Of a stretch of 43,553 nucleotides of DNA, positions 6,198 to 43,381 are shown one piece after another. The translations under genes and the position numbers were made by a program. The stretch covers positions 1 through 43,553 of the forward strand of contig NZ_JADEUF010000021.1 in the NCBI RefSeq assembly GCF_015163655.1, written 5' to 3'. Below the pieces are notes generated by a model. The model did not search any database. It was not told the origin of the DNA and saw nothing but the letters and a program-made list of their open reading frames with translations. Positions within the stretch are counted from its first letter, which is position 1; every line of letters begins with the position of its first letter. This stretch comes from Xenorhabdus griffiniae (GTDB lineage: Bacteria > Pseudomonadota > Gammaproteobacteria > Enterobacterales > Enterobacteriaceae).

Positions 6198-7955
6198 ATG
6201 CTTCCCTCAATTTTTGTGCGTTTAAAAACTGGTTTAATTTATACAGCGTTGCTGTCAACTATCATTATTGCAGGATGTACCATGCCCGAACAGCAAGGGC
6301 AACCAACTTCTAAGCCTCAGGATAAGATCAGCGCAGAGATTAACCGCTACCAAGCTATTATTGACGCAGCACACAATCAACCATCGTTGGATGTGATCCG
6401 TGCTTACATTGCATTGGAATCTTTCGCAACAGATGAAGCTGCCCGCCAGAAAAACTTTGATGAAACCTGGCAATTACTGACGCAACTTTCCCCGCAGCAA
6501 ATGAATGAATTGGTGATTAATGCCAATGAATATACGTTGCAGGGCTGGCTTGATTTACTCAATACCTATCAGACCAATAAACAGGATCTCGATAAATTGC
6601 GTCTCGCTATTCACGATTGGCAAATCCGTTATCCAAATAACCCTGCGGCCCACAGTTTACCCACAGCTCTGCAACACATGTTGCAAGAAACTGAAAACAG
6701 CCATGCCACAATTGGGTTATTTCTGCCTTTGAGCGGCCAGGCCAAAATATTTGGTGACGCCACTCGCCAGGGTTTCCTTGATGCTCAAAAAGGCCTGCCA
6801 GAATCACCATCGCCAACAAATACCACCGATCCAAATGGTACGGTTAACGCCGAACCCTCTACCAGCCCTGAAAATACCAGTGCTGTAAATTCAGGGAATG
6901 CTGATCCCGCCACACCTGAACCCAAAATGGGGATGATTGATAGTGCACCTACCAATGATCAGACCGTAAAAATCTATGATACCAACAGCCAGCCTCTTAC
7001 TGAACTGCTGGAACAGGCTAAACAAGATGGTGTCACTCTGGTGGTTGGGCCATTACTGAAACCCAATGTGGAACAATTGGCTCAAATTGAAACGCCCCTG
7101 AATATTCTGGCGCTCAATGAACCCGATATGCCACAAGGACGGCCAAATATGTGTTATTTCTCACTCTCTCCTGAAGATGAGGCGAAAAACGCCGCCATGC
7201 ATATCTGGCAACAACAAAAGCGCAGCCCTTTGGTGTTGATACCTCGTACTAACTTAGGCACGCGAGTTGCACAAGCCTTTGCACAAGAGTGGCAAAAACT
7301 GGGAGGTCAGACGGTATTACAACAATCTTTTGGTACGCCAACAGAAATGAAGCAATCCATGAACCGTGGAATTGGCATTCGTTTGTCGGGTACGCCGGTT
7401 ATTTCCACCAATTCGGCCACAGATCCTGTCGATGCCGTTTATATCGTTGCGACAGCAAACGAACTGACAATGATCAAGCCCATGATCGATATGGCAATCA
7501 GCTCCCGTAAAAAGCCAGCACTTTATGCCAGCTCGCGTAGTAATAAAGCCGGTTCAGGCCCTGACTTCCGCCTGGAAATGGATGGCATGCAGTTTAGTGA
7601 CATCCCACTGCTGACTGGTGTAAATGTGCCATTAATGCAGCAAGCAGCCAAAAAATTCACCAATGATTATTCCCTGATGCGCCTCTATGCAATGGGCATT
7701 GATGCATGGTCACTGGCCAATCAATTTACGCAAATGCAGCAAGAAATGGGATTTCATCTGAGTGGTGCTTCGGGGGAACTCTCCGTGCTGAATAACTGCA
7801 CTATCTTACGTCAGTTACCCTGGATGCAATTCAATAATGGTCGCATAATCCTTGAAAATACCAATAGCACGGAAGGTATCGATAATGCAGGAAATACCCA
7901 TAACATAGAAAGCACCGATAGCACTGTTCAGGGAGATCATCCCGGAAGTGAATAA
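6198..7955 (+). CDS. lpoA: Penicillin-binding protein activator LpoA (shortened N-domain)
   Basis: An outer-membrane lipoprotein that reaches through the periplasm and activates PBP1A. The 585-aa product starts at ATG 6198 (MLPSIFVRLK, aligned with E. coli MVPSTFSRLK). It has a type II signal peptide with lipobox IAGC at Cys27. The C-terminal periplasmic-binding-like domain is complete (GLFLPLSGQAKIFG, VVGPLLKPNVEQL, YASSRSNKAGSGPDFRLEMD). A P/S/T/N-rich linker lies at about 198-238. Compared with E. coli LpoA (678 aa, from memory), roughly 80-90 residues of the N-terminal TPR-like domain are missing just after the lipid anchor, and about 30 low-complexity residues are added at the C-terminus. 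The ribosome binding site is weak. It is divergent from rsmI and heads lpoA-yraN-diaA-dolP. Confidence 0.93.
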   Translation: MLPSIFVRLKTGLIYTALLSTIIIAGCTMPEQQGQPTSKPQDKISAEINRYQAIIDAAHNQPSLDVIRAYIALESFATDEAARQKNFDETWQLLTQLSPQQMNELVINANEYTLQGWLDLLNTYQTNKQDLDKLRLAIHDWQIRYPNNPAAHSLPTALQHMLQETENSHATIGLFLPLSGQAKIFGDATRQGFLDAQKGLPESPSPTNTTDPNGTVNAEPSTSPENTSAVNSGNADPATPEPKMGMIDSAPTNDQTVKIYDTNSQPLTELLEQAKQDGVTLVVGPLLKPNVEQLAQIETPLNILALNEPDMPQGRPNMCYFSLSPEDEAKNAAMHIWQQQKRSPLVLIPRTNLGTRVAQAFAQEWQKLGGQTVLQQSFGTPTEMKQSMNRGIGIRLSGTPVISTNSATDPVDAVYIVATANELTMIKPMIDMAISSRKKPALYASSRSNKAGSGPDFRLEMDGMQFSDIPLLTGVNVPLMQQAAKKFTNDYSLMRLYAMGIDAWSLANQFTQMQQEMGFHLSGASGELSVLNNCTILRQLPWMQFNNGRIILENTNSTEGIDNAGNTHNIESTDSTVQGDHPGSE

Positions 7956-7990
7956 TTTTCTCTGATTAAAGGTATCGTGGTCATTTCAGG

Positions 7991-8374
7991 ATGAAAAAAC
8001 CAACAGGCAATCACTACGCGCTGGGGCGCCATTATGAACATCAAGCTAAACTGTTTTTACAAAAACAAGGGCTTGTCTTTGTTGCTGAGAATGTAAAAAT
8101 TCGCGGCGGGGAAATCGATCTGATAATGCGTGACGGGCATATCTGGGTTTTCGTTGAAGTTCGTTTCCGCCGAAATGCACAATATGGTGGTGCCATTGCT
8201 ACAATTACCCACAGTAAGCGCAGAAAGCTCTTGTATACGGCTGCTGTCTGGCTGTCCCAACGCAATGAATGTCTGGAAACAGCATCATGCCGCTTTGATG
8301 TTTGTGCAATAACAGGACAGAAATTTGAATGGCTGAAAAATGCCTTCACCCTGAATGAGAATCTATTTCAATAG
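7991..8374 (+). CDS. yraN: YraN, UPF0102 endonuclease-fold protein
   Basis: A 127-aa protein of the UPF0102 family, which has a restriction-endonuclease-like fold. The signature RGGEIDLIM...VFVEVRFR gives the D43 and E56-x-R57 arrangement of the PD-(D/E)XK-like site, with Arg in place of Lys as in other family members. The cellular role is not settled; RNA/DNA processing linked to recombination has been suggested. It lies 35 bp after lpoA in the conserved lpoA-yraN-diaA-dolP order. Confidence 0.93.
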
Positions 8375-41608: not shown

Positions 41609-41881
41609 ATGACAGTCAAACAAAGACTTGAAATTAAAAATCGGCTCGGAATGCATGCTCGGCCTGCGATGAAACTGCATGATCTGGTACAACAGTTTCA
41701 ATCAGAAGTGATTCTGCGTAACAGCAGTAACTTACAGGCCGAGGCCCGCAGCGTCATTGCCATGCTGATGCTCGATTCTGAACAAGGCAGCCATATTGAC
41801 GTTGAAGTCAATGGGCCGGATGAACAACAAGCACTGGCGGCCATTATCGAACTCTTCAACGCCGGGTTTGATGAAGAGTAA
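41609..41881 (+). CDS. npr: Phosphocarrier protein NPr
   Basis: A 90-aa HPr-like phosphocarrier that passes phosphate from PtsP to PtsN. Phospho-site His16 lies in [13 protein letters not shown]; the Ser46-type region has [12 protein letters not shown]. It starts 17 bp after rapZ and ends the conserved rpoN-hpf-ptsN-rapZ-npr group. In E. coli yrbL and mtgA follow; here an AT-rich accessory segment begins instead. Confidence 0.97.
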
Positions 41882-42169: not shown

Positions 42170-42988
42170 ATGAAAGAAAAGAATAAAATAATACAACATC
42201 ATTTCGATAATGACTTGATAAAGTTAATTAACTTTAATCTCGATTGTGCTGAAAAAGAATGGCAACAAGTTCGACATAAATTAAATAAAAATGAAACTAA
42301 TATATCAATGGATTGGATTAATAATAATTTCCATCAGCATGTTGATAGCAATAATAACGTTATCACCACTGAATTAAATTCTGAATACAGTCACAAAGAT
42401 AGCGTTAAACCAGTACCGGAAAAAGAAATGGTACAAACGTTCATACCCGGCTATCCAGTTTTAGAGAATAATAAACCTGAAGTTGATGAATTTGTTGTAT
42501 TTATGATGGATATGAGAAACTCCAGCTCCAGCTTTAAACAACGTCCCACCGCCACTATAGAATGTGGTTTACAAAGGATTTTCTATGAAACGTCCGCATT
42601 AATTCCAGCAGTAGTTTATACAGCCGCACAAGAAAGTGGGAAAATGACAGAGCTACTTGGCGATGGGGCATTAATTCTTTTTCACATTAAGCCTAACAAC
42701 CGCGTAAATATAATAAATAAAGCTTATATGGCTGGCAAACAATGCATTAACAATACAATTAATCATGTTAATGCTATCTTATGGGATAGATACAATTTAC
42801 CCCCTTTAAAAATTGGTATAGGCCTTGCTTATGGAACTGCCATCGTTAAGGTCATAAATATAAACGGACATCATCCTAAAGTGATAGGCCAGTGTGTTTG
42901 GGAAGCAACAAAATTAAGCCACGGAGAAAATACGATAGGGTTGTCAGAAGAAATTCAAAAAATATTAAATTTAAATAAATCATGTTGA
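42170..42988 (+). CDS. Class III nucleotidyl cyclase-like protein, divergent active site
   Basis: A 272-aa protein with no signal peptide or membrane helix. Residues 1-100 are polar, rich in Asn, Lys and Gln, and not recognised. Residues 105-265 resemble a class III cyclase: VVFMMDMRNSS (metal Asp114), TELLGDGALILF (metal Asp165), KIGIGLAYG and VIGQCVWEATKLS. By motif alignment the base-recognition positions are Glu161 and Lys237, and the usual transition-state Asn/Arg are Trp244 and Lys248, so substrate and activity are open. Small stand-alone cyclases of this type include Pycsar (PycC) anti-phage enzymes, but no effector gene is next to it. It is strongly AT-rich, with a weak ribosome binding site, and bordered by repeat copy 4. 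Confidence 0.65.
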   Translation: MKEKNKIIQHHFDNDLIKLINFNLDCAEKEWQQVRHKLNKNETNISMDWINNNFHQHVDSNNNVITTELNSEYSHKDSVKPVPEKEMVQTFIPGYPVLENNKPEVDEFVVFMMDMRNSSSSFKQRPTATIECGLQRIFYETSALIPAVVYTAAQESGKMTELLGDGALILFHIKPNNRVNIINKAYMAGKQCINNTINHVNAILWDRYNLPPLKIGIGLAYGTAIVKVININGHHPKVIGQCVWEATKLSHGENTIGLSEEIQKILNLNKSC

Positions 42989-42993
42989 TATTA

Positions 42994-43098
42994 TATACCA
43001 ATCTAACTTCAATATGCGTGTGTTTTCTCCCCGCTTCGCGGGGAGAAAACAGGTTTCATATCACGTTGTAAATTGCAACTTGAAGTTTAATGTGTATA
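42994..43098 (-). repeat. Intergenic nested-palindrome repeat, copy 4 (inverted)
   Basis: A full copy of about 105 bp in the opposite orientation to copies 1-3: TATACCAATCTAACTTCAA, ATGCGTGTG, the core TTTCTCCCCGC-ttc-GCGGGGAGAAA (43024-43048), AGGTTTCATATCACGTTGTA, then GCAACTTGAAGTTTAATGTG and the end TATA. It starts 5 bp after the cyclase-like gene stop and ends just before the monooxygenase remnant. Confidence 0.85.
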
Positions 43099-43105
43099 AA
43101 AATAG

Positions 43106-43381
43106 TTAGCCAAAAAGCGCTGCGAAAAATCACTAAAAATCTTACCTGGTTTATTCCCCCATCGCAGGTTCAACTATCAGCATATTTTACAAAATATGGG
43201 AATTCATCGCATGTTATTGGGAACGCCTGAAATGATCGCTGATGATGTGGAAAAATGGTTTTTTGGAGAGTGCCGCCGATGGGTTCGGGCTGACTATACA
43301 GAACAGATACGCTTCGGTGTGTCCTCTTGCCAAGGCAGGGCGAGATCTCACATTTTTAGCAAGGTTATTGAGGTTAAATAA
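43106..43381 (+). pseudogene. Remnant of a luciferase-like (LLM class, NtaA/SnaA-type) flavin monooxygenase
   Basis: In one frame 43106-43264 reads KSLKILPGLFP, then directly QHILQNMGIHRMLLGTPE and MIADDVEKWF. These resemble a mid-protein segment and a C-terminal segment of NtaA-type FMN-dependent monooxygenases, with the part between missing. After a run of six T at about 43259-43264, removing one base continues as ESAADGFGL, the expected family sequence, so the gene also carries a frameshift. The left part of the gene is missing beside repeat copy 4. It is not functional. Family membership is judged from motifs only. Confidence 0.6.

Follow-up and report, generated by a model that had tools for sequence, protein, structure and literature searches.

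A probable PycC-type nucleotide cyclase gene without an adjoining effector, beside npr in Xenorhabdus

What does a signal-making enzyme do when the partner that is usual in its family does not lie beside it? The question is raised by a reading frame at positions 42170–42988 of a 43,553-nucleotide stretch of Xenorhabdus griffiniae DNA (the window; contig C124 of a 4.22 Mb genome). All positions given here are those of the window and all features described lie on the + strand. An initial annotation had described this frame as an orphan cyclase-like gene with an altered class III active site, encoding either a defence-related or otherwise specialised cyclase or a nucleotide-binding protein that had lost its activity. 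The reading that we favour, with moderate confidence, is that of a retained and probably active PycC-type cyclase that is without its effector and would signal to another receptor.

The gene and its active site

The frame is intact, starts with ATG and encodes 272 residues. Scans against Pfam and NCBIfam gave no convincing match (no family at all in NCBIfam), while the PADLOC PycC model matched the protein at E = 6e-4; a promoter scan returned 5 hits against 7.4 expected. The frame is a real gene and not a chance one, as is seen from its full-length orthologues and from the large excess of synonymous over non-synonymous change among them. It is AT-rich, as had been noted, with a G+C content of 33.0% against 44.8% for the window. 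Matches were found in 8 of 30 genomes of the genus, comprising six intact full-length orthologues (G000, G199, G224, G223, G221 and G215), one broken gene (G198) and one separate copy (G214). The five orthologues other than that of the window are full-length, share 62–77% amino-acid identity with it and adjoin the same conserved neighbour, npr. We assign the gene to the PycC-type class III cyclases from its reading frame, its orthologues, the predicted fold and the effector-linked relatives described below.

The catalytic residues all stand where the initial annotation had placed them: the metal-type aspartates Asp114 in MMDMRNS (42509–42511) and Asp165 in LLGDGAL (42662–42664), Glu161 (42650–42652, four residues before the second aspartate) and Lys237 (42878–42880) at the base-recognition positions, and Trp244 and Lys248 (bounding 42899–42913) at the sites that Asn and Arg normally occupy. 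They were compared in an alignment of 20 rows, six from orphan cyclases and 14 from effector-linked relatives; an independent alignment was also made. Identical in all 20 rows are D114, R116, S118, T160, E161, L163, G164, D165, G166, C242, A246, K248, S250, G252 and N254, while position 237 has Lys in 19 rows and Arg in the remaining one, and position 244 is always Trp, Phe or Tyr. The classical transition-state pair of Asn and Arg was thus found in none of the 20 aligned sequences, all of which carry an aromatic residue and Lys instead. Because the unusual residues are identical or nearly identical in 20 relatives, they are letters of the family and therefore not damage. Decay of the active site was rejected because of their conservation in the whole subfamily, effector-linked members included, and of the earlier description the altered site stands but not the decay. 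The same conservation, together with the purifying selection reported below, argues against the suggestion that activity has been lost, and Asp114 and Asp165 are predicted to bind metal.

An AlphaFold model of the window protein (predicted local distance difference test score, pLDDT, 79) adopts the fold of class III cyclases with a ferredoxin-like core, bearing out the fold order that had been proposed. The core covers about residues 92–255 (42443–42934), as delimited by the model, the structure comparison and the invariant columns. The N-terminal part, which had been thought a possible sensor or effector, is modelled instead as one long helix (residues 2–40, 42173–42289; pLDDT 92–94 at residues 11–30) and a low-confidence linker (about residues 41–86, 42290–42427; pLDDT below 50 at residues 42–46 and 53–81) that is longer than in the effector-linked relatives. 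On these grounds, and with the highest 19-residue hydropathy in the cyclase at 1.45, an N-terminal effector domain was rejected. PMC11224242 describes an N-terminal helix as a hallmark of PycC. The model possesses this helix, and its superposition on EaPycC (8jsf) starts at residue 10, at 4.1 Å.

Effector genes beside the distant relatives

More distant relatives, 29–40% identical to the window protein and with the same catalytic-site letters, turned up in several settings. Enterobacter, Klebsiella, Acinetobacter and Desulfosporosinus carry them on plasmids, a Salmonella contig has one next to a gene of an integrating conjugative element, and others come from two genomes of the order (G317 and G399) and from four IMG/VR contigs. 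Of 5426 E. coli genomes 5 matched, and the two that were inspected both have a RepL gene close by. Members that can be named are those of the E. coli 4/1-1 chromosome, Klebsiella pE25a, Acinetobacter pA2702 and Xenorhabdus G214. The G214 copy is 43% identical over residues 90–256 and lies on an 8.8-kb contig, two reading frames of which look integrase-like by eye. The Enterobacter, Klebsiella and L086 relatives are close copies of one another (87.5% between Enterobacter and Klebsiella). The counts leave out two partial matches from the order search (L014 and L015, E 0.002–0.003), six Rhizobium plasmid records at 28–31% identity (among them L022, where the cyclase forms the end of a long protein), A. 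pittii LC777725.1, which scores the same as L019, and three of the five E. coli genomes, L088 being counted once with L087. Sampling at the family level matched the window's own genome only (1 of 198), and a search of E. coli DNA with the window gene gave no match. A phylum-wide profile search matched 118 of 398 genomes, beyond the window only as partial core matches with E of 6e-12 or weaker.

When the neighbours of the homologues were tabulated, all 14 distant relatives counted had, immediately upstream and on the same strand, a gene for a protein of 164–204 residues with two or three hydrophobic regions, separated from the cyclase by −11 to 53 bp. The PADLOC PycTM model PDLC02364 matched 13 of the 13 upstream proteins scanned, that of L086 lying outside the scan. 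As a control, 29 ordinary class III cyclase loci, each spanning about 1.5 kb on either side of the match, were taken from the phylum-wide search, and a profile of PycTM-like proteins found no match in any of them. The same profile matched 15 of 15 positive loci, a figure that is partly circular since 13 of these proteins had built it. The presence of a PycTM-like gene in front of all 14 distant relatives counted, and of none of the 29 ordinary cyclase loci, therefore indicates that the subfamily belongs to Pycsar-like pairs. The defence relationship that had been suspected thus holds as kinship; for the npr-linked Xenorhabdus version itself no PycTM was found.

At two of the 14 loci, within the stretches covered (L084 reaching only 530 bp upstream), a second cyclase gene lies directly before PycTM, so that two different cyclase genes flank the effector: L009 1387–3470 in G214 and L018 4520–6684 on the Desulfosporosinus plasmid. 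In both, the first cyclase matches Pfam Guanylate_cyc and the second is of the altered type. The paired cyclases could act as a heterodimer. When the first of the two cyclases in L009 was searched against the PDB, it returned chance matches only. The first cyclase of the Desulfosporosinus pair reads KVFGDCVNIASKL in the region of interest, with Lys at both the Lys237 and Lys248 columns. Because it has both lysines and still retains the Asn, it is, judging by its sequence, intermediate between the classical site and the altered one.

Matches to other defence models were seen near two relatives. A PifA match (E = 1e-252) lies near L017, and in the Salmonella contig L021 genes for a ThsB-like TIR protein and for a caspase-like one stand directly behind the cyclase (6654–8028), possibly as a further defence unit. 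Two further neighbours gave no match when scanned with defence models.

The orphan branch beside npr

In all six genomes with an intact orthologue the cyclase follows a gene (41609–41881 in the window) that we take to be npr, encoding an HPr-like protein of the phosphotransferase system; it has a strong match in 29 of the 30 genus genomes and was used to mark the locus. Five of the six carry an intact flavin monooxygenase gene starting 22–39 bp behind the cyclase, with alr further down; the window contig ends before the expected position of alr. The intact X. griffiniae copy belongs to TIGR03860 (E = 5.8e-141). In the window genome the cyclase is kept and the monooxygenase is broken, leaving a remnant of this LLM (NtaA/DmoA-family) gene at 43175–43381 (tblastn stretch 43175–43339, reading frame 43196–43381). 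Between the two lies a dispersed repeat of about 105 bp (42994–43098) with a 14-pair hairpin at 43021–43051. The repeat has 41 matches in the genome including this copy, a lower bound because 40 of 364 candidates were scored; another copy within the window is at 1158–1257. What had been taken for mobile-element debris downstream of the cyclase is therefore the remnant of a monooxygenase gene that is intact beside five orthologues, together with a hairpin repeat of which the genome has at least 40 further copies.

The description of the gene as an orphan is supported. The PycTM profile found no effector at any of eight orphan loci, which represent six genomes (L002 and L004 are the same, as are L003 and L007). 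Across the 30 genus genomes it gave nothing significant in the orphan genomes: G214 matched at 1.9e-67, and the three remaining matches had E of 0.04–0.15. A search with PF18967 was negative in all 30 genomes; this search is weak, because it also misses the G214 effector. No PycTIR gene adjoins the orphan cyclases, although no search with a PycTIR model was made. A second PycC as partner was considered and rejected, since the five of 30 genomes matched by PDLC02368 are accounted for by four of the orphan genes themselves and G214. With the cyclase intact and no PycTM found, it probably works with a different partner or has taken on a new function. A continuing role of the orphan in phage defence, with the effector encoded at another place in the genome or belonging to a type not yet recognised, overlaps with the reading we favour but is in itself doubtful: the defence-model matches near L017 and L021 provide a family context for it, and the negative results with both PycTM models, which do not extend to PycTIR-type effectors, count against it.

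The six Xenorhabdus orthologues group together in a single clade, which sits on a long branch, and they differ in shape from the effector-linked members. They have 18 residues after Asn254, compared with 37–46, and end 19–28 residues earlier; before Ile92 they have 89–120 residues, compared with 47–69 in the 14 relatives. Solved PycC-type structures (EaPycC 8jsf, BcPycC 7r65, AnPycC 8jsz and PaPycC 6yii) share with the subfamily the class III fold, the two metal aspartates and the N-terminal helix, and the subfamily also has a neighbouring PycTM gene; the Xenorhabdus copies depart from them in having no adjoining effector gene and in a C-terminus shorter than that of the effector-linked members.

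Is this branch being lost? Among 29 npr loci (G160, with only a weak HPr-type match at 2e-6, was excluded), the cyclase is intact in six and broken in one, monooxygenase traces alone remain in four (G012, G206, G222 and G210), and in 18 this search showed no trace of either. In the broken case (L010 of G198, about 1500–1900) the cyclase is internally deleted, with part of it running into the monooxygenase reading frame. In a rapZ–npr tree, in which deep support is weak, cyclase carriers occur in several lineages. The simplest reading is one old insertion followed by many losses; repeated transfer into the same site may be the alternative. The transfer proposed earlier is in keeping with the relatives, which are often on plasmids or viral contigs, but less so with the Xenorhabdus gene, which keeps the same location across diverged species, most of which lack it or have it only in broken form.

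Selection was estimated from the ratio of non-synonymous to synonymous rates (omega) over 15 orthologue pairs, with synonymous divergence (dS) above 1 in many pairs and with the G224 gene taken from locus base 1501 (first codons missing) and the G223 gene from an upstream TTG. Omega was 0.090–0.221 for the cyclase core, 0.174–0.225 for the whole gene and 0.229–0.518 for the N-terminal part (11 of 15 pairs computable). The neighbours gave lower values over 10 pairs each, 0.055–0.073 for the monooxygenase and 0.003–0.018 for rapZ. The cyclase is thus under purifying selection but less strictly kept than its neighbours. These values bear on the idea that the orphan is a functionless, decaying remnant of a Pycsar-like system, which lost its effector first and is now losing the cyclase. 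Such a course would fit the small number of intact loci, the broken G198 gene, the four loci with monooxygenase traces alone, the shorter C-terminus and the monooxygenase already broken in the window genome. It is unlikely given the constraint on the core, seen also in the close pair G224/G223 (omega 0.123 at a core dS of 0.29), and given that the catalytic-site residues are kept in all six orphans.

What the orphan cyclase may do

PycC makes cCMP or cUMP and PycTM disrupts the membrane, according to PMC11224242. We read the window protein as a soluble class III cyclase of a subfamily whose other members would supply the signal in Pycsar-like pairs: when a phage infects, they would make a cyclic mononucleotide that activates the small membrane effector PycTM. 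One cyclase lineage would have become fixed beside npr in Xenorhabdus without the effector; it ends earlier at the C-terminus, has a longer linker and is kept by purifying selection. The orphan enzyme would cyclise a nucleoside triphosphate as a homodimer, and its signal would reach another receptor, which may be a defence effector encoded elsewhere or a regulatory target that is new. We infer catalysis, the dimer, the base and the receptor of the orphan, as well as the loss of an effector rather than its never having had one.

Several observations weigh against this account. The long branch of the orphans measures 2.38 changes per column and the root was not placed in a tree with two outgroup cyclases, which makes a PycTM-bearing ancestor only an inferred one. 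The C-terminal region that is shorter in the orphans lies near the active site in EaPycC, as described in PMC11224242. Of 29 npr loci, 23 lack the cyclase or have it broken, so that it is dispensable. For the PycC beside the G214 copy (the first cyclase of L009), tblastn found no family member. The model of the window protein is as close to ordinary (adenylyl) cyclases as to the four solved PycC-type structures. Finally, the PADLOC PycC models match all 20 subfamily members at E ≤ 0.01 but match all 10 ordinary class III cyclases scanned more strongly (best match of each 2.6e-16 to 8.4e-33), and they match 3 of 14 control genomes. These 10, scanned out of the 29 control loci, are all Pfam Guanylate_cyc proteins, some fused to ferredoxin or CHASE2 domains. 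Since ordinary cyclases match too, the PADLOC PycC match carries no weight for kinship and was rejected as evidence, and the PycC-type label rests on the PycTM genes beside the relatives.

The last two observations would suit an ordinary class III cyclase, making cAMP or cGMP and having no defence past, from which the effector-linked relatives were recruited. So would the single chromosomal site, 22–39 bp from a metabolic gene in 5 of 5 genomes, and the alignment of Glu161 with a Glu of the guanylyl cyclase Cya2 (2w01). We consider this origin very unlikely. The Asn/Arg pair is missing, Pfam Guanylate_cyc matches 0 of 20 subfamily members compared with 10 of 10 ordinary cyclases, the distribution over npr loci is patchy, and each of the 14 relatives counted beyond the orphan clade is linked to an effector gene; nine of these relatives come from plasmid records or IMG/VR contigs.

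The identity of the base leaves room for a further alternative. In Cya2 the Glu at the Glu161 position reads guanine; Cya2 differs from the subfamily in having V-N where the latter has V and an aromatic residue, and we know of no counterpart of Lys237 in classical guanylyl cyclases. Base-contact residues given for EaPycC (F100, R142, Q144) and AnPycC (F60, K104, F109) in PMC11224242 were not found when compared by position from the metal aspartate: the positions fall on Met or Val, Glu, Leu and Leu, with Met112, Glu161, Leu163 and Leu168 in the window protein. PMC4886424 lists uncharacterised cyclase-like proteins of which 24 of 53 (our count from its Table 1) have a Glu and Lys substrate-specifying pair and His for Asn. 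They resemble the subfamily in this pair and in the replaced Asn; they differ in that 21 of the 24 are from Bacteroidetes, the other position holds Arg, Gln, Tyr, His or Cys, and the specificity is the authors' prediction. A bolder possibility is that Xenorhabdus has domesticated a cyclase of phage defence, keeping the PycC-type enzyme in the absence of the toxic effector, with its cyclic product serving as an everyday signal that is possibly coupled to the flavin monooxygenase. Going further, the base used throughout the subfamily, also by the effector-linked members, might be neither C nor U, given that Glu161 occupies the position of the Glu of guanylyl cyclases; the pairs would in that case be a Pycsar-like defence working through another signal. 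We put this forward tentatively, as possible rather than probable.

A retained PycC-type cyclase without its effector remains the reading we prefer. The literature searched, which did not extend to supplements and most subscription papers, contained no paper combining Xenorhabdus and Pycsar, and the opening lines of abstracts on Pycsar or PycC and on Xenorhabdus anti-phage biology describe neither this subfamily nor an effectorless PycC. A match to the PycC models of PADLOC-DB 2.0.0 says little about the presence of Pycsar when no effector gene lies next to it. The PycC-type cyclases gain a subfamily with a conserved set of active-site residues that is invisible to the Pfam cyclase model (0/20). 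Its orphan branch is a natural experiment on the fate of a suicide-signalling enzyme once the killing partner is gone; the answer may be a receptor that is still hidden, or a cyclic nucleotide put to a new use outside defence.
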